This document shows, one piece after another, positions 7,087 to 60,800 of a stretch of 64,000 nt of DNA; position 1 is the first letter of the stretch; each line of letters starts with the position of its first letter. This DNA is from Tenrec ecaudatus (lineage: Eukaryota > Chordata > Mammalia > Afrosoricida > Tenrecidae). A program made the position numbers and the translations under genes. The DNA lies in contig NC_134535.1 of assembly GCF_050624435.1 (NCBI RefSeq), positions 126,219,731-126,283,730 of the forward strand. Reading direction: 5' to 3'. The notes beneath the pieces were generated by a model that saw nothing but the letters and a program-made list of their open reading frames with translations, made no database searches and was not told where the DNA came from.

Positions 7087-7233
7087 GATCCCTGCTGGTG
7101 TAGTGGGTTCCAAGTTGGGCTGCTAACCGGAAAGGCAGCAGTTCGAAACCACTAGTTGCTCCTCGGGAGAAAGATGAAGCTTTCTACTCCCATAAAGAGT
7201 TGCAATCTTGATGTGCTTGCTTCGGCAGCACAC

Positions 7234-7269
<36 letters not shown>

Positions 7270-7418
7270 GCCCCTGCACAAGGATGACACGCAAATTCAT
7301 GAGGCGTTCCATATTTTTCTAAAAAAAAGAAAAGAGTTACAGTCTTGAAAACCCACAGGAGCAGTCCTACTCTGCCCTATAGGGTGGCAAGCGTTGGGAT
7401 TGAAGCGATGTCATTGAG
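7087..7418 (+). repeat. AfroSINE, split by a U6 retropseudogene
   Basis: tRNA-like head (GGGCTGCTAACCGGAAAGGC, then GCAGTTCGAAACC as B box) and SINE body on both sides of 7,212-7,330. The body resumes in register after the insert. Confidence 0.75.
7213..7318 (+). pseudogene. RNU6 pseudogene: U6 snRNA retropseudogene
   Basis: Near full-length U6: GTGCTTGCTTCGGCAGCACA at the start and CGTTCCATATTTTT at the end, with changes such as a lost G after GATTAGCATG. It ends in an A-rich tail and is flanked by an 18-bp target-site duplication (7,194-7,211 and 7,331-7,348, two mismatches). The upstream sequence is SINE, with no U6-type PSE or TATA, so it is not an active gene. Confidence 0.88.
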
Positions 7419-31375: not shown

Positions 31376-31380
31376 TGTTA

Positions 31381-31680
31381 GAGGTTGAAGCCGTGGGTGA
31401 GGCTGTGTTAGAGGCTGAAGCCGTGGGTGAGGCTGTGTTAGAGGCTGAAGCCGTGGGTGAGGCTGTGTTAGAGGTTGAAGCCGTGGGTGAAGCTGTGTTA
31501 GAGGTTGAAGCCGTGGGTGAGGCTGTATTAGAGGTTGAAGCCGTGGGTGAGGCTGTGTTAGAGGTTGAAGCCGTGGGTGAGGCTGTGTTAGAGGTTGAAG
31601 CCGTGGGTGAGGCTGTGTTAGAGGTTGAAGCCGTGGGTGAAGCTGTGTTAGAGGTTGAAGCCGTGGGTGAGGCTGTGGCA
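31381..31680. repeat. 30-bp minisatellite, ten copies
   Basis: Ten head-to-tail copies of a unit starting GAGGTTGAAGCCGTGGGTGA, with only a few variant bases. Because 30 is a multiple of three and the unit has no stop in several frames, it is open on both strands and would encode decapeptides (VEAVGEAVLE on +). No gene context supports translation. Confidence 0.95.
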
Positions 31681-34275: not shown

Positions 34276-34416
34276 TTAGTAGCGGTGCGGGGGGGTCTCG
34301 ATGATGCGCCTCTCGTCGCTGCTGGGGGAGTCGGCTGCCTCGGAGTCACTGCTGTCCTCTTCCTCCCGCTGCCCAGCGGCAGCCCCGGTCACACAGACCT
34401 GCCGGCTCTGGTAGGA
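34276..34416 (-). CDS. CLSTN3: CLSTN3 exon 18, C-terminal coding part and stop
   Basis: Residues about 908-953, SYQSRQVCVTG to ETPPHRY, then TAA. It is an acidic serine-rich tail (EEEDSSDSEAADSPSSDE). The acceptor is CTCTAG. It is also predicted as the last exon of CLSTN3B. Confidence 0.97.
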   Translation of the reverse strand, partial: SYQSRQVCVTGAAAGQREEEDSSDSEAADSPSSDERRIIETPPHRY

Positions 34417-36121
34417 CTAGAGAGGGCAGAGCCCAGGAGCAGGGGTGGATGGCAGGCACGCACCTCAGGCCCTCCTCTTCACCCCATTCTCCCTGCCCCA
34501 CAGCCTCCCTCCCACCCCTTGCAGCCTAGGGGTGGGGCTGGGGTAGGGGGTGGGAGCCAGGCCTGGACCTGGGTCCTTGTTTGAGGCTTTGCCGTGACCG
34601 GTCCAGCCAGCAGAGTAGGACACCCCCCCCCCCGCCCACCCCAACGGGCGTCCTGCCCCCTCCCCAGGGCCACTCACCTCCATAGGATTCACGATAATCG
34701 TGAGGGCTGAGTCGTCCCAGAAGAGGTCAGGGTCCTTGGGGTCACTGGAGGCCCCCGGGGTGAGCCCGGCCCCCGAGACGCGGCGGTGAAGGGAGTGGAT
34801 GCGCACGAGGCCCAGGACGACCATGAGCACCAGGAAGCCCACACACACCACGATGATGAGGGTGGCGGCACTCGGGACCACTGGGGGGGGGAGAGCGTGG
34901 GTGAGGGGATGACGGGGGGCCAGGCCCCCCGTAAGGGGCTGCACACAGCAGTGGCGGGGGCTGGGTGGAGGAGGGAGACCAAGAGTGAGAGGGGACAGGA
35001 TCCAGGCTAGCTGGAAGAGGGGAGCATCCCACAGAGCTGGAAGAGAAATGGAGCCCCCTGGGAAGGGCAGAGAGGTGGGGGTGAAGGTGGAGGTGGGGTG
35101 AGGGTGGAGGGGCAAGACAGACGGAGGAGGAAGGTCCCCTGGCCTGCGCTGTTCTAAGCAGCACTGTTCTCCGCCAAGAGGCCAAGGACGGGAATCTGCC
35201 AATGTCATTCTGCTTGTGCCATCCCCAGGGCCCACTGAGCCTAGGAAAGAGGTGCCCCAGTGCCCAGTGGGGGGAGAGGCAGCCACAGGACCCTGGCTGG
35301 TGCAGGAGTGGAGACACAGGCCAGGTGCCCAGGAAGCGGGGAGGCAGGTCTAAAGTCCTCCAGGGGGCCAGGGGCAGCCGTTACCCACCTGCCCTGAGCA
35401 AGCTCCTGCTTGCTGGCAACTCCCTCCTCCTGGTGGGCTCCCGGCTACCGGACATAGGGAGCTTCTGCTCCACCCTAGCCTGTCTCCGAGGTGTGGCCAT
35501 GTCCACCCTAGGCCTCTCTTGCCTGTGATCCCGCAGCCTCATTCTAACACCCAGGTTCAAGGGGGCATAGACCCGGAAGGGCAGAGAGACCTGGAAGGGC
35601 GCGTGCACCCTCACCCTCACCTTGGAGCTGATGGCGGCAAAGCAGAAGTGCATGCACAGGGACACACCCAGGAGGAACATGTGGATGCACAGCTGGGCAG
35701 CGGACCACACAGGCCGCACCCCAGACAGGATCCTGCAGGCCTGCACCGTGGCCCGCACCAGCCACCTGGCAGCCCGCTCACACAGCGGGATCAGAGCACT
35801 GCTCCACAGGAGGGAGTCCAGCAGGGCCCTAGAGAGCCACACATGCAGCATCACCCAGCTCCCTACCGCCTGAGCGGTCAAGGCGATGCCCTGGAGGATG
35901 ACGTGAGCGCACCAGACGTGGACCGCGAGGGCCGCAGAGTGAGTAGTCCGTCGCACGACCCTGCCTGCCCCCTGCGCACACAGCCATGGCAGCCGGAACA
36001 TCACAGAGAGGCAGGACAGGAGTGCCGACAGCCACAGGGACAGCAGGTGGAGGAAGAGGCCGCACACACTCGCTCCCAGGACCACGGCCCTTAAAGGCAG
36101 CTGGATCACTATTCCCCACAT
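34276..36121 (-). CDS. CLSTN3B: Calsyntenin-3 beta (CLSTN3B), alternative product of the 3' part of the CLSTN3 locus
   Basis: Predicted segments are 36,121-35,389 (unique exon), 34,880-34,678 and 34,416-34,276 (CLSTN3 exons 17-18), 358 residues in all. The unique 244 residues begin MWGIVIQLPLRAVVLGASV. They hold hydrophobic stretches at about 12-42, 62-96, 98-113 and 138-164, then an arginine-rich segment (18 Arg in residues 165-244). The donor GCAG/GTGGGT leaves one base, G, and the exon 17 acceptor supplies the other two, so the CLSTN3 transmembrane helix and tail follow in frame. Known biology: CLSTN3B is a mammal-specific fat-cell protein of the ER and lipid droplets that keeps droplets small and multilocular. 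The assignment rests on position, architecture and splice phase. The start is uncertain: the frame stays open to an upstream ATG at 36,271, and neither ATG has a strong context. Upstream noncoding exons were not found. Confidence 0.82.
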
Positions 36122-39100
36122 ACATGAAAGCACCTGTCCCCCTGTGTGTGTACACGGGGGCTCACCTGACCCCAGAAGCTCCGTGAGGCCGAGACCCTGG
36201 GCAGTCCTGCCACGGGGGAACTGTCGCACACACCTGTGCCAACCCCGGCCACACACACAGACCAGGGTCATACACCCCTAGAGACATACACACATTCTAC
36301 ACCCCCAGTCCCAAGTTCACCCAGCACTTCCGCCACTCAGGAGACAGAACACAGAGAAGCCCCTAGCATGGAAGCCCCCACTCCCGTTGTGCACCTCTTC
36401 TCTAGGCAGCCAGCACCCTCACACAGCCACACGCTCCACAGACCAGCCAGGTATGGAGACAATGCCCTGCCTGACCGAGTGTGCCAGTCAGAGGCCTCCC
36501 TGAGGGCGCCCTGGCAGCACTCCACCAAGTTGGTGCTTCGTCTTGACTCGACCCATGGCCCACTTGGGGCCATTCTCCAGTTTGAACTGGCTCGTTAGGG
36601 CAGGGCAGGGCAGAGATGGGCCTGCCTGTAAAGGCATTTCTCAATGGAGTGGGCGGGAGGGAAGAATGAGACAAAGTAGCACTTTCTGTTCATTTGCAGA
36701 AAAACAGTGCCTCCCAGGTCTCCCATGTCAATGGAGGAGACCCAAGGACGAGTGACAGCGCCGGCAGATAAACCCTGTGACCAAGCCCAGGCGCTGGAAG
36801 GAATGCGAGACCCCTCTTCCGAGTGCAGGCCACATGACACCAAGTCCACGTGTCCGTCTTGGGCCTCAGTCCAGTGCATCGGGTCCCTCTGTACTCTTGG
36901 CCTGGTAAAGGAGGTGACCGGCTGACTACCAGGAATAAGAAATGATCACAAGGAAGACAAAATACAGACCCTATCTGCAGGTAAACAGCAACTATTATTA
37001 AATGAGCCGAGAGGCTAGGGAGCTGCAGTTGGTCTCATTTTGGGCCCTGGCCCATCAGCAAAGGAAGGCCCTGAAGGCTTTCCTCCAGCAGGTGTCGCTG
37101 GACCTGAGCCATGTTGGTTGACTGCAGTTTACTGAGGAAGAAGGCAGTTCTTCCTCAGTCGTATTTTGTGTACCTTCCGATTGGCTCCAGACAGATATCC
37201 CACCACTCGTCTGTCAGATTTTTGTACTGAAGTGGCTTGTGTACTGCTGTGACACTGGAAGCTATGTCGCTGGGACGGGAAACCCCAGCAGGGTCACCCA
37301 AAGTCGACAGGCGTCAGCAGAGCTCCCAGACTAAGAACAGACTACGAAGAAGGAATAGGCTGCTCACTTCGGAATTAATCACTGAAAGCCGTATGGATAA
37401 CACCGAAGCATCGTCAGTTACTGGAAAACTAAAACCTAGCAGCAGAACGTGGTCAGAGATAACACTGGAAGGTGAGACCCTCGGGTGGCAAGGTACTCAA
37501 AATGTGACTGCGGAAGAGCTGCCTTCTCAAAGCAGAGTCAGCCATAAAGACCGGCGAGAAGTTTTCAGGACCTTCACTGACCGCTGGGCACAGCCCGAAT
37601 GAAAAGCAATAGCGCCGAGCATCAACTGGAACTTGGAATGCACAAAATATGAATCTAGGAAAATTGGAAGTCATCAAAAATGAAATGGAATACATAAAAA
37701 TTGATATCCTAGGCATCCATGAGCTGAAATGGACCTGTATTGGCCATCTTTAATCAGAAAATTACATGGTTCACCAAGTCTGGGATGACACAATCAAGAG
37801 GACTAGCACTACATTCATCATCAAAAAGGACATTTCGAGAAGGGTATTTGAAACGCAATGCTGTCGGGGATAGGATGATGGCTGTCCTCATACAAGGAAA
37901 TACAAGCAATCCAACTGTTACTCAAATTGAGGCACCAACCACGGAGACTAGCAATGCAGAAAATGAAGTACTCTACCCATGTCTTCCATCTGCAAATGAC
38001 CAAGCATGCGATCAAGATGGCGCTGATAATTATTGGTGATTGGAAGACAAAGGTTAGGAACAAAGAGAAAAGAATGGTCGTTGGAAAATACGGCCTTGGG
38101 GATAGAAATGAAGATCGAGATTGCGTGATAGAATTTTGCGAGATCAACACCTTCTTTTTCCCCACTTTTTTTTAATTCCAAAAACACAGATTGTGATAAT
38201 ACACATGGACTTCTCCAGATGGAATACACGGAAATCAAATGGACTACATCTGTTGGACAAGGCAATGGAGAAGAAGCTCAATATCAGCAGCCATAATTAT
38301 TCCAGGGGCCAACTGTAGAAATGACCATCAGTTGCCCGTAGGGAAGTTGAAGTTGAAGAAAAGGGAAACGAGACCACAAAATATAACCGTGAGCGTACCC
38401 CACCTAATTTCAAGACCATCTCAAGAACAGACTTGATGCCTTCAATGCTAATGACAGAAGAGCTAGGGAGCGATGGGAGGACATCAAGAACATCATTCAA
38501 GAGGAAAGCAAAAGGTCATTTTAATAGACAGGTTTGTCAGATGAGACTCTGAAACTTGCCCTTAATCATAAAGTAGCTGAGGGATAGGGGCAAAAGACGA
38601 AGTCAAAGAGCTAAACAGAAAATTTCAAAGGGCCACCCAAGAAGACAAAATAGTAAAATAAAATGTGCCAAGTCCCAAAATTAGAAAAACAAAAGAGCAA
38701 AACACGCTCCTCATGCCTTAAATTGAAGGAACTAATGAAAAAGTTCGCGTCTCCAATCACAATATTGAAAGACTGAATGGGCAAAATAGTGAATGATGCT
38801 GCCACTTGGAGAAGGACATCCTGCTTGGTCAAGTAGAAGAGCCAGGAAAAAGTGGAAGGCCCTCCAGGAGACAGACGGACACACTGGCTGCAACCATGGG
38901 ATCAACCATGGGGATGGCGCAGGACCGGGCAAAGTTTTGTTCCACGACACCTCACATCAACAGACAGACAGATATGAAGAGATTAAGAAGTCAGAAGAGC
39001 CTTTCTTGCTGCATTGGCTCCAAGCAGTGAATTCTGGTTTGAAATGGCCTGGGGGGGACTGTATGATCTGGTTATAAGGACACTGTTGAAAGCTCTGTTC

Positions 39101-42100: not shown

Positions 42101-45100
42101 TTATGAAATGTGTCTGCATCCAAATAATCACTGGGATGGGAACGATTACCGTGGACACCCTACTAGGCACCCTTTCTCCCTCTTAGGGAATGAGGGTAGC
42201 AGTTCAGTGTGTAGCAGCCAAATCTTTTGACCAACAGAGTCAGAAACAATGACGCCCAGCTCCAAAAAGGATGACCAACGATACCACTTTGAATGTGTGT
42301 CACTCTCCATATTCCTGGCAACAATCTCCTACATCAGATTCCTCAAAGGATACACGCCACCTCTCTCAGTCTCCCTCCATTTTTCCCTGTTCCAGTCATT
42401 ATTCCAACACACCCACATTTTACAAATTCAGGTCTGCTCCGAAGTTGCTGCGTCCGCCATGACTGAAGGCCTTTGATCCCCTGACCCGAACCCCATCCTG
42501 ACTTTGAGATTCAAAGTGCCCTGCAATGACACCAAGCTCACATTCTTCATTGGGGCTGGGGGTAGGGGTGGAGTAATGATCCAGAGAGATACATTTGCCT
42601 ACAGCCATCAACCAAGTCAAGTGTCACAGAGGTCAGAGCCCCATGCTCCACCTCTACCTCCCTTCCATGGCCCCAGCAGTCAAGCAGGAGAACACCTGGG
42701 CCCAGCCCTCTCCCCCATCATCCAACCCTCCCCGCTGAGCCCCACCACACCCCACCGTACGTACTAGAGTTTCGATGGGAGCTGGCCAGGCTGTGTCCAG
42801 CCATCTCAGGGGGCGGCTGATGACCACGGTGCAGGAACTGCTGGGAACTGAGCACATGGCTGGGGTGGGCAACCCGATTCATGCTGTGCAAGACGTTGAC
42901 CTTGGAGCAAGAAGTCTCAGTGGGCACATGGGCGTTGACCCAGACCTCACGCCACAGTCCCCCAGCCCAGTCCTACCTCTTACCTACAGCCCCAAACCGT
43001 CTCCTCCTCCACCCACCATGAGCTCTAGGCACCCTCCCTCCCTCCTGCAGGCTCCATACCCACCAACTATGGGTTTCAGTCCATGCCACCCTGCCTCCTT
43101 GCCAGTGGAGGGAAGGAGGCCATGGGTACCTCCACGATGAACTCATTGCTGGAATAACGGCCATTCATTTCCGAGCAGGAAAGCCGGAATTTCCTGGCAT
43201 AAAGTGCAGCTCCATGTCGCAGCCGATAGCGCGCCTGCCTCAGGATCTCCTCGTACACGGTGATACTTTCCACCCCTGGGGAGAGGAACGTTCAGGGCCC
43301 AACACAGTGGAGACAGGCCCGAGGCTCAACCCTCCCTCGATCTCCTCCACACTCACCAGCTCACACCATGCAAAACCTAGGGAAAGGGTGTGGGGGTGGG
43401 GGTGGGGGTGGGAAATAAACCCAAGTCACATAAAATGGGTTAGACCGTCCCTCAACAGGAGTGTGACTCAAACTCTCACTCTCAGAGCAAGGGCAGCTCT
43501 GTGACTGACCCACAGCAGCTCCGTCTCCTGCTCTGCCCTCTCCCCGTGTTCTATGGCTTCTCAGGAGGGATGGGGGAAGGAACAAGGAGATGCTGAAGAA
43601 CAGAAGGGAGGGGCAAGCAGGAAGGACTCTGAGAGATGGGAACACAAAGGAGTTCTCAATCAGGTCCTGGAAGGGAACGGAAAGAGGAGAGACACCTTCT
43701 GGACGAGTCTCTGGAGACTCCTAGTCTGTCTGCCTTTGCCTCACTTACCATGAAGCTACAGTGTGTCCATGAGGTTTGTGAAATGGAAGACAAGCCGTTT
43801 GGCTCATGCTAAACCACGGCAGGACTAGAATATTAGTTAGGGATGTCTGAGCCACAAGAGGAGAGTGAGAAGAGAGATCTGGGGGAAGCCATGAGTAGAG
43901 GTGAATCAGAACAGAAAGGAGTTGGGTGTGGTGAGAAATATTTTCAGTCCACCCCTTAGACACCACCTAGAAGACAAAGGGTCTTCTTCCCAGACCGGGC
44001 ACAGGGTCCCGCAGACCCCTCTGGGTTTCTCACACCCTTGATCAGAGAACGGGGTACCAAAAGGCGAGGCCAGGCGTTCGGCCTCCACTGACCTGCAATG
44101 GTGAGGTAGGCAGACGTGTTGGTGAGCTCCAGGCCGTGCTGCTGGAAGGAGGTCATGTCCAAGAGCAGGCTCTCCCGCTCGGGGTCCAGGTCATCCCCCA
44201 CCAGAGAAATCTCACAGCCATCCAGGTTGTGCACAATCTCATCTGACATGCGTGTGTCTGTCACTGGGCAAGAGAAGGTGGGGGCCTGGGTCAGAGCTGA
44301 AGGGTTCGTTGAGGTTCTGAGCCAGCCAGGTGTTTGGGACCATTCTTGTTCCCCTTCCGGGGCCATTTCAAACGATGACTTACAAGTCGGCGGCATCATT
44401 TAAGAAGCGCAAGACCCAACCATTTTCTAACACCTATGTACCTCCCACTGGAGCTACTTCCTATTGACAAGTGGTTCCCATCAAGCCAATGCAGGAGGAA
44501 GCGACTGTCGTTTCCAGTGCCAGACTCCCCCACCCTCCAGTTCCTCTCCATGGAGTCATGCTTACCAGTGCCCTGCCAACTCTCATCCTTCTTGGCCTCC
44601 ACCTGGTGGGAAATGGAGCAAGTAACTTGAAGATCAGGAAACAGAGGAACCCCCTCCGGTCCCTCAAAGTCCATGGCTGGACGGGCAAAATGGGCTGTGC
44701 CACTCAGCAGGATTTGTGGGGCATCAGGCTGAAGAACCACCACATAGCCCTCCACTTCAGGGATGGAGACACAGGATTCCTCGCTGAAGCACCTATGGGC
44801 GGACAGGGAAGAGAGGCAACTTGTGACCACAAAGCCCCCTCTCTTACAATCCATATCTAGCTCACCCTTCTGGGCCTCAACCTCTACAACGGAGCACCCC
44901 ATCTCAGAGAGGAAAGGCGGGTAGCGTCTCTTCCCCCTCACCCCATAGGACTATGCTGGAGGGGAGAGGCGCCCTTTGTGGTTGGTGCCACTGCAGAGAC
45001 AGAAGTTCAGGTACCCCTGACCTGACCAGTACAGGTAACCATGGGATCATGCCTCCAATGGCCTGCCCCAGGATCGCAGAGCATCTAGCAAACCTTATTA

Positions 45101-57800: not shown

Positions 57801-60800
57801 TAGGTGTTCTGGACCCTGGCCATCCCCTCCCCACCGTCTCCAACAACTGCGTATGTGAGTGTTCCTGTGTCCACTGCAAGTAGACTGGGGAGCAGTGGAC
57901 AGGGGTTCTGGATGTGTGCTGAGCATGGTTCCTCCTCCTCCTCCTCCTCCTCATCATCATCATCATCATCATAGCTCCCATGTGTTGAGCTGTTTACCCT
58001 GTGCCAGGTAGTGGGACGTGTGCTTTACACACGCCATTTAATCTTCACAACAACCCTGCGAAGCAGGCACCCATCACTATCCTCATGTTACACAGAGGAA
58101 AAGGAGAGCCGCAAAGGTCCGTAAGCTGCCCAAAGCGGGGGTTTCCAAGGAAGGGAGGAAGGAAGGAAGGAAGGAAGGAAAGAGGAGAGGGAGGGAGGAA
58201 GAGAAGAAGGGAGGGAGGGAGGAGGAGAGGGAGCAAAGAAGGGAGGAAGAAAAGAAGGAAGAAGGATGGAAAGGAGGGAGGAAGGGAGGGGGAGGGAAGG
58301 AAGAGGAGAGGAAGGGAGGGAAGAAGGAGGGAAAGAAGGAAGGAAATTAGGGAGAGAGGAAGGGAGGGAGGGAGGGAGGGAGGGAGAGGAGGAGAGGGAG
58401 GAAGGGAGGGGGAGAAGAGGGAGGAAGAAAGGGGGAGGGAGGGAGGAAGAGGAGAGGGAGAAAGGAAGAGAGGGAAGGAGAAGAGGGAAGAAGGAAGGGG
58501 GGAGGGAGGAGGAAGAGGAGGGAGGGAAGAGGAGAGGTAGGAGGGGAGGGAGAGACGGAGGGAGGGAGGAGGAGAGGGATAGAGGGAGGGAGGGATGGAG
58601 AGAGGGAGGGAAGGAGGAGGAGAGGGAGGGAGGGAGGAGGAGTGGAAGGGAGGGAGGAAGGGCATTTGCTGTGAAGTTGACTCCAACTCATGGGCACCCC
58701 AGTGTGACAGAAAAACCTGTGCCTCATGCAGTTTCAATAACTTGTTTTTCAGAAGGAGATAACCAGGCCTCTGGATGGACTCAAACCTCCCACCTTTGGA
58801 TTAGCAGTCGAGCACGTTAACATCGGCACTCCCCAGCCAGGGTTAGAGCCAAATAAACTCTATTATGTGCTTCTGCCACCTTGACTGGAAGGATCCTAGG
58901 CAGGGAGGGAGCAAACACACTGATCCTAAACCCTGAGAACATCAAAGAAGTGGGTGGACATTCAATGGCCACAGGAACATGGCATGGTGAGGGGCTGGGA
59001 AAGGAGGACAGGAGGCAGAGGAGTGGGGGGGGGCGGCTATGGGGCAGGGAAGGGCCCTCACTTGTGGGACTTTTTGGTGTTGGCCCCATCAGGGCCCTCA
59101 CCACAGTCATAGGCCTGGATGGTGAAGGTGTGCTCCTTCTGAGCCTCGCAGTCCACTGGCTCCTTGGCCCGGATCAATCCTTCTCCTGTAGCCTTGTCCA
59201 AGATCACTGCCTCAAAGGGCACGCCAGACCCATGGAGCCGGAAGCCGCAGATCTCACCTGGCCCGGAGGGAGGAGTGGGGGAGCAGTGAGCCTTCTGAAC
59301 CCCCTCTAGCATGGCCTCCTCCACCTCAGGTTCTCCAGCTGTGGTTCTGGCTTCAGCCCTTCTCCCCAACCCGGATCCTTCTCCTGAATGAGCTAACATA
59401 ACTCCAACCTCAGTTGCTCTCTCAGAGTCACTAGGTCTGAGAGGTGACAAACCTTGATCCAATTATCCCCTGCCTGCGTAGCACGTCCTTCTCTCTGTGC
59501 TCCTGTCCTCAGTCACAGTCCTTCAGTGGATCTCATTCCCCACCTTGAGCCTACTTCTGTCCTCAGGTCCCTTCCCCATGGTCCCCTTATGCCCACTCTC
59601 ACAGCCCTCGTGCTCCTGAGATCAACCCTGCCTTCTTTCACTCTCTGCCCTCCCAACCACTTTTCTCTGCTTTACCTGCTTACCATTCCCCAGCCCCAAT
59701 TACCTGCATATCGCAGGGGGGCGTCCTTGTCCAAAGCGAAGAGTGGTGGATTCAACAGGACAGTGTTGTCGTTCTCCATGACGATGCCCTGGTACTCTGC
59801 CTCGATCCATGGCTTGTGCTTATTGGCTGGACCCAGAGAAAGGAGGAGAAACACCTGTGACCCTGGGTCTCCGCTTCAAGAACAGCACCCGAAGGTCCGG
59901 GCAGACTCACACCCAGCACCCTCACCGTTTCCACCCCCTGCAGCAGCTCCTCGGAGGAGGACAAGGAGGAGGGTGTGGATGAGGGTGAACCATTAAAGGA
60001 GTAAGATGATCTGTGGAAGGTCACAGCCTTCTCCTATTGCAAGATAGACAATTTCCATAGCAACAGCCTATACTCCCCCCCCCCCCCAGGAGGTAGGGGA
60101 GGAGACCATCATCTCCCCTGGGGACCAGGGTCTGGCAGAGAACTTTCTTCAGGTTCAGGGTGTAAAGCACTTGACAATGGAGACTGGAAGTCAAGGAACA
60201 GCGGTGGCCACCGAAGGGCCCATGGAAAATTCAGGGAGAGAATAAGAGCAGAGCTGGGATTGCATGAAAGGAGGTGCCCCTTCTTGGGGATCTGTTTACT
60301 ATCCTCCTGCTCCCTTCATTCTTCATCCTTCTCCCTGCACTCTTCCCTGCTCCCAACCAAGTCTCAGCCTAAGGCCATTCTCCCAGAGCAGATGGAACAG
60401 GAGAAAGGAGGGGCAGAAAAGAGATATAGGACAGAAGGAGGGGGGACGGAGTGTGGCTGGGATGGAGCAGAGGAATCAGTGTCAAATGCCTGCACCCAGC
60501 AGAGCCAACATCCTAAGGGATTATGGAGTTGGCCTAGAAATACAGCCAATCCCCTGCTGGCTTCCCACCCCCACCCCCAGAAGAACACACTCGTCTCCAG
60601 CCTATGTCCACCCCCCTTACAGGGCCTCCGAACCCGGGCTCCCCAAACCCACCATTTTGTAAAGCCCCAGGACTTAGCTCCAATGTTTTCCCATCCAACC
60701 CGCTTCCCTTCAGCCATCAGCCAAGTCAAAGTGGGTGTGGGGTTCAGAACGGGTATGGGGCTCAGAGTGGGTGTGGGGCTCACTCCAGATGCTCCCACGC

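Follow-up and report, generated by a model that had tools for sequence, protein, structure and literature searches.

Does the open frame on the minus strand of CLSTN3 intron 16 encode an intact CLSTN3B, and would such a gene say anything about brown fat? Both questions arise from the window, the whole stretch of 64,000 nucleotides analysed here. We address them through the splice geometry of the locus, its relatives among database proteins, the constraint on its unique exon and its state in lineages that have lost UCP1.

An alternative first exon in CLSTN3 intron 16

The initial annotation proposed an open minus-strand exon of 733 bases between CLSTN3 exons 16 and 17, and it was found at 36121-35389. 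It starts ATG TGG, encodes residues 1-244 plus the first base of codon 245, and its 3' boundary reads GCAG/GTGGGTAA. The donor GTGGGT (35388-35383, minus strand) opens an intron of 508 bases (35388-34881, minus strand), which separates the unique exon from exon 17 and is the 3'-terminal part of CLSTN3 intron 16. Two minus-strand exons are common to CLSTN3 and CLSTN3B: exon 17 (34880-34678, 203 bases), which encodes the transmembrane (TM) helix, and exon 18 (34416-34276, 141 bases), which contains the stop. The annotated match between the phase 1 donor of the unique exon and the phase needed by exon 17 is borne out, as the joined frame gives 358 residues plus stop. CLSTN3 exon 16 (42903-42765, minus strand, with a 5' end approximated by tblastn) ends at 42765 with ...AACTCTA/GTACGT, also in phase 1, and therefore either exon can join exon 17. 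Intron 16 measures 7884 bases. The junction codon is A+TG (Met) in CLSTN3 and G+TG (Val) in CLSTN3B. Exon numbers follow PMC12153863; those mapped here start at the LNS region (54657) and continue to the gene end, and are part of the 18. CLSTN3B is described as a three-exon gene (PMC11748976, PMC12153863, PMC7272401) whose first exon PMC12153863 places in intron 16, and the locus has this layout, with a first exon inside CLSTN3 intron 16 in phase with exons 17 and 18.

An open frame of 298 codons appeared in one of 4000 local dinucleotide simulations, scored in one fixed frame. The GC fraction of the unique exon is 0.81 at third codon positions, 0.61 at first and 0.51 at second, a third-position excess as in coding sequence. 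Rfam and tRNA scans returned no match within the unique exon. Elsewhere in the window, a full-length U6 snRNA match (7213-7318, plus strand, 108.7 bits, model positions 1-105 of 105) is either a gene or a retrocopy.

If the intron were retained, the frame would gain Gly-Gly past the donor and then meet TAA at 35383-35381, for a total of 246 codons, so that the unspliced frame does end two codons on, as had been noted. Several gene predictions show this form, and database models of 245-252 residues end in Gly-Gly (for example P0012, P0015, P0018, P0024 and P0026). We nevertheless regard it as extremely unlikely that the functional product is this 246-residue frame without the calsyntenin tail. 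Exon 17 is joined in frame in 11 of the 28 database proteins that carry the unique part (P0001-P0011), and three of these (P0007, P0009 and P0010) come from contigs of 2.1-2.3 kb, a size consistent with an origin in spliced cDNA. Choloepus P0013, together with P0023, P0045 and P0047, reads through past the donor, and thus the early stop is not universal. The published descriptions cited above count three exons, and pig protein was detected by an antibody against the CLSTN3 C-terminus, as PMC12153863 reports.

The start codon has unusual surroundings. An out-of-frame ATG (36125-36123, minus strand) lies four bases 5' of the CLSTN3B start and opens an overlapping frame of 98 codons, whose stop ends at 35829. 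There is also an in-frame ATG at 36271, 50 codons upstream of the start used here. By the general rule for good start-codon context, all three are in weak contexts. Sequence extends 5' of the aligned start Met in 12 of 23 proteins with the unique part; human and the two macaques carry an earlier Met, nine residues ahead, P0021 has one six residues ahead, and in P0009 and P0017 the earlier Met is further upstream. The residue preceding the start Met in the 12 relatives is Pro in 11 and Leu in one, and such a codon excludes the out-of-frame ATG from all of them. In the window, the overlapping ATG may lower translation.

Relationship to CLSTN3B of other placental mammals

The top database match to the whole 358-residue product had E = 4.1e-133. 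The human isoform CLSTN3beta (UniProt, P0004) matched with 63% identity, 100% coverage and E = 2.7e-128, so that the alignment to human CLSTN3B suggested by the initial annotation extends over the whole length. Among the whole-product matches listed, the best were marmoset (65%), a bat (63%), donkey (63%) and human CLSTN3beta. The unique part was aligned in 23 of the 42 proteins matched in the first search. Judged by coverage, the other 19, which include the named turtle and fish proteins, match the shared tail alone. A profile search added five proteins with the unique part and brought the total to 28; both protein searches scored the best ~8000 candidates. Where a listed match with this part has a species name (16 species), it is always that of a placental, and each name stands for one member of a 90% cluster.

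With this homology and the gene structure given in PMC12153863 and PMC7272401, the orthology that had been proposed stands. The exon is very probably the CLSTN3B ortholog of a placental mammal, probably one outside Boreoeutheria and plausibly a tenrec. CLSTN3B here is an intact copy of a known gene with the same architecture as in other placental mammals. What is new is that it comes from an apparent deep placental branch and is absent from the listed database matches, none of which is marked as encoded by the window.

The window and human genes share a unique first exon in intron 16, exons 17-18 joined in frame, a hydrophobic N-terminus, an arginine-rich linker, the TM helix and an aligned MWG start. 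However, the unique parts are only 50% identical, and the window has one additional residue near 106 and 18 arginines in residues 168-244 versus eight in human. In addition, the human protein has an in-frame Met nine residues ahead of MWG that the window lacks, whereas the window has the overlapping out-of-frame ATG at its start. The C-terminal 114 residues of the product, encoded by exons 17 and 18, are shared with CLSTN3 (calsyntenin-3), a synaptic adhesion protein, but the product has its own N-terminus and lacks the upstream ectodomain exons, which in CLSTN3 encode the cadherin and LNS domains.

A tree of the unique part was built from the window and 24 proteins (25 rows). Groupings were largely as expected for mammals, with simian primates (99/99), carnivores (84/93) and Sus plus Catagonus (100/99) recovered and the mouse lemur outside the other primates. 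With P0010 as outgroup, the window and the sloth branch outside the remaining 22 rows, although support at the two forks that place them is weak (68/94 and 73/57). A place outside the boreoeutherian rows fits an afrotherian and is compatible with a tenrec. The outgroup itself is an unnamed CLSTN3B-like protein of 349 residues that joins exon 17, with identities of 33% for the unique part and 86% for the tail. A search for relatives of this most divergent ortholog returned nothing beyond P0010 itself. It may belong to a marsupial, a monotreme or a fast-evolving placental; an origin beyond the placentals would give a date for the exon.

Divergence and constraint in the unique exon

The unique exon is fast-evolving: its identity is 50% to human and 55% to sloth, compared with 91% to human for the shared tail. 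Across twelve full 20-residue segments, mean pairwise identity was highest at 161-180 (0.72) and lowest at 201-220 (0.40). Neutral simulation at d = 0.4 gave 48% identity, close to the 50% observed to human, and therefore identity by itself is no proof of selection.

This quick divergence, together with the weak start context and the overlapping out-of-frame ATG, could suggest a decaying relic that is open by chance, in a species that makes no CLSTN3B. Measured from the sloth-plus-boreoeutherian ancestor, with the inner branch included, the path to the window (0.611) also exceeds 20 of 23 others. When rooted with P0010, however, the same path is 0.455, the second shortest of 24, and the exon keeps 244 codons without a stop or frame break and an intact donor and phase. 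At d = 0.4, which matches the observed identity, neutral copies acquired ~6 stops each and 0 of 400 were stop-free, which argues for selection on the open frame. Changes relative to human are also milder than neutral (mean BLOSUM -0.52), with 0, 4 and 25 of 300 neutral runs as mild at kappa 2, 4 and 8. In each of the five comparisons the average change was milder than under neutrality, but the number of neutral runs (of 300) that matched the observed value at kappa 8 was 25 for human, 23 for sloth, 41 for donkey, two for pig and one for P0010. These protein-level simulations, which depend on kappa and d, favour coding constraint on the unique exon, and we consider decay very unlikely.

Lipid droplets and the question of UCP1

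Hydrophobic stretches, an arginine-rich segment and the CLSTN3 TM helix had been noted in the product, and all three were seen. An AlphaFold2 (AF2) model from 25 sequences predicts four long hydrophobic helices (3-55, 60-106, 108-133 and 136-167), with low confidence from 168 and nothing structured after 167. Block means were mostly 74-87, falling to 55-64 in blocks 1-10, 51-60, 131-140 and 161-170. With a mean pLDDT of 65.7 and a pTM of 0.30, the predicted packing of the helices is not reliable. A PDB structure search with the model gave no matches, and the sole weak PDB sequence match, to aquaporin-3 (E = 0.097), was set aside. The 18 arginines of residues 168-244 are the second highest count of 25 rows; in the row with the most, the segment is 26 residues longer than in the window.

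PMC12153863, citing earlier work, describes arginine-rich segments, contact between ER and lipid droplets, CIDEA binding and phospholipid transfer for CLSTN3B. A promoter inside CLSTN3 intron 16 would drive a short adipocyte transcript whose first exon joins exons 17 and 18. By homology, the encoded protein, with its hydrophobic N-terminal helices, disordered arginine-rich linker and calsyntenin TM helix, would reside at ER-lipid droplet contacts, where the arginine-rich part would draw the two membranes together. It would curb CIDE-driven fusion and keep droplets small and quickly usable. The arginine-rich segment and TM helix match the published membrane bridging, which we infer for this species too. 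A motif scan of intron 16 found no enrichment of DR1 (0, 0.8 expected), EBF (0, 0.7), NBRE/ERR (1, 3.4), C/EBP (2, 5.1) or CRE (2, 4.4) sites. Expression is not strictly confined to fat, since Clstn3b mRNA is also reported in mouse liver (PMC13367965).

The initial annotation took an intact copy to be informative on brown fat, given the loss of UCP1 in several afrotherians. This does not hold up. PMC5611445 reports that the lesser hedgehog tenrec has thermogenic brown fat and lists lineages with inactivated UCP1, including pigs, Equidae and Pilosa; these statements are at the level of lineages, and the status of donkey and sloth is taken from their lineages. Equus asinus (P0003) and Choloepus didactylus (P0013), each with 239 positions aligned to the window, keep the unique exon open, as does Sus scrofa (P0008), with 229 aligned and one six-residue gap inside the conserved block. 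Their P0010-rooted paths (donkey 0.556, pig 0.740, sloth 0.408) fall within the range of all 24 (0.408-0.885), and thus UCP1 loss has not broken or clearly accelerated CLSTN3B there. An intact CLSTN3B therefore does not report working brown fat, and its survival does not simply track UCP1.

That the exon stays open in these three argues that CLSTN3B acts on lipid droplets separately from UCP1 heat, and its conserved function is probably to handle lipid droplets independently of UCP1. According to PMC12153863, pig CLSTN3B was detected in PK15 cells and was overexpressed there in a test of droplet number. We give even chances to the broader proposal that selection on general lipid-droplet handling in fat, not on UCP1 heat, keeps CLSTN3B, which should then also have stayed intact in elephants, hyraxes and sirenians, all of them UCP1-null. 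It is less likely than such UCP1-independent retention that, in this species, CLSTN3B output has been tuned down by the upstream ATG and the linker made more basic.

The window also holds two arrays outside the CLSTN3B exons. A minisatellite at 31376-31677 (unit of 30 bases, 10.1 copies, 97% matches) is open in several frames, and a purine-rich AAGG-type array of ~515 bases lies at 58147-58662.
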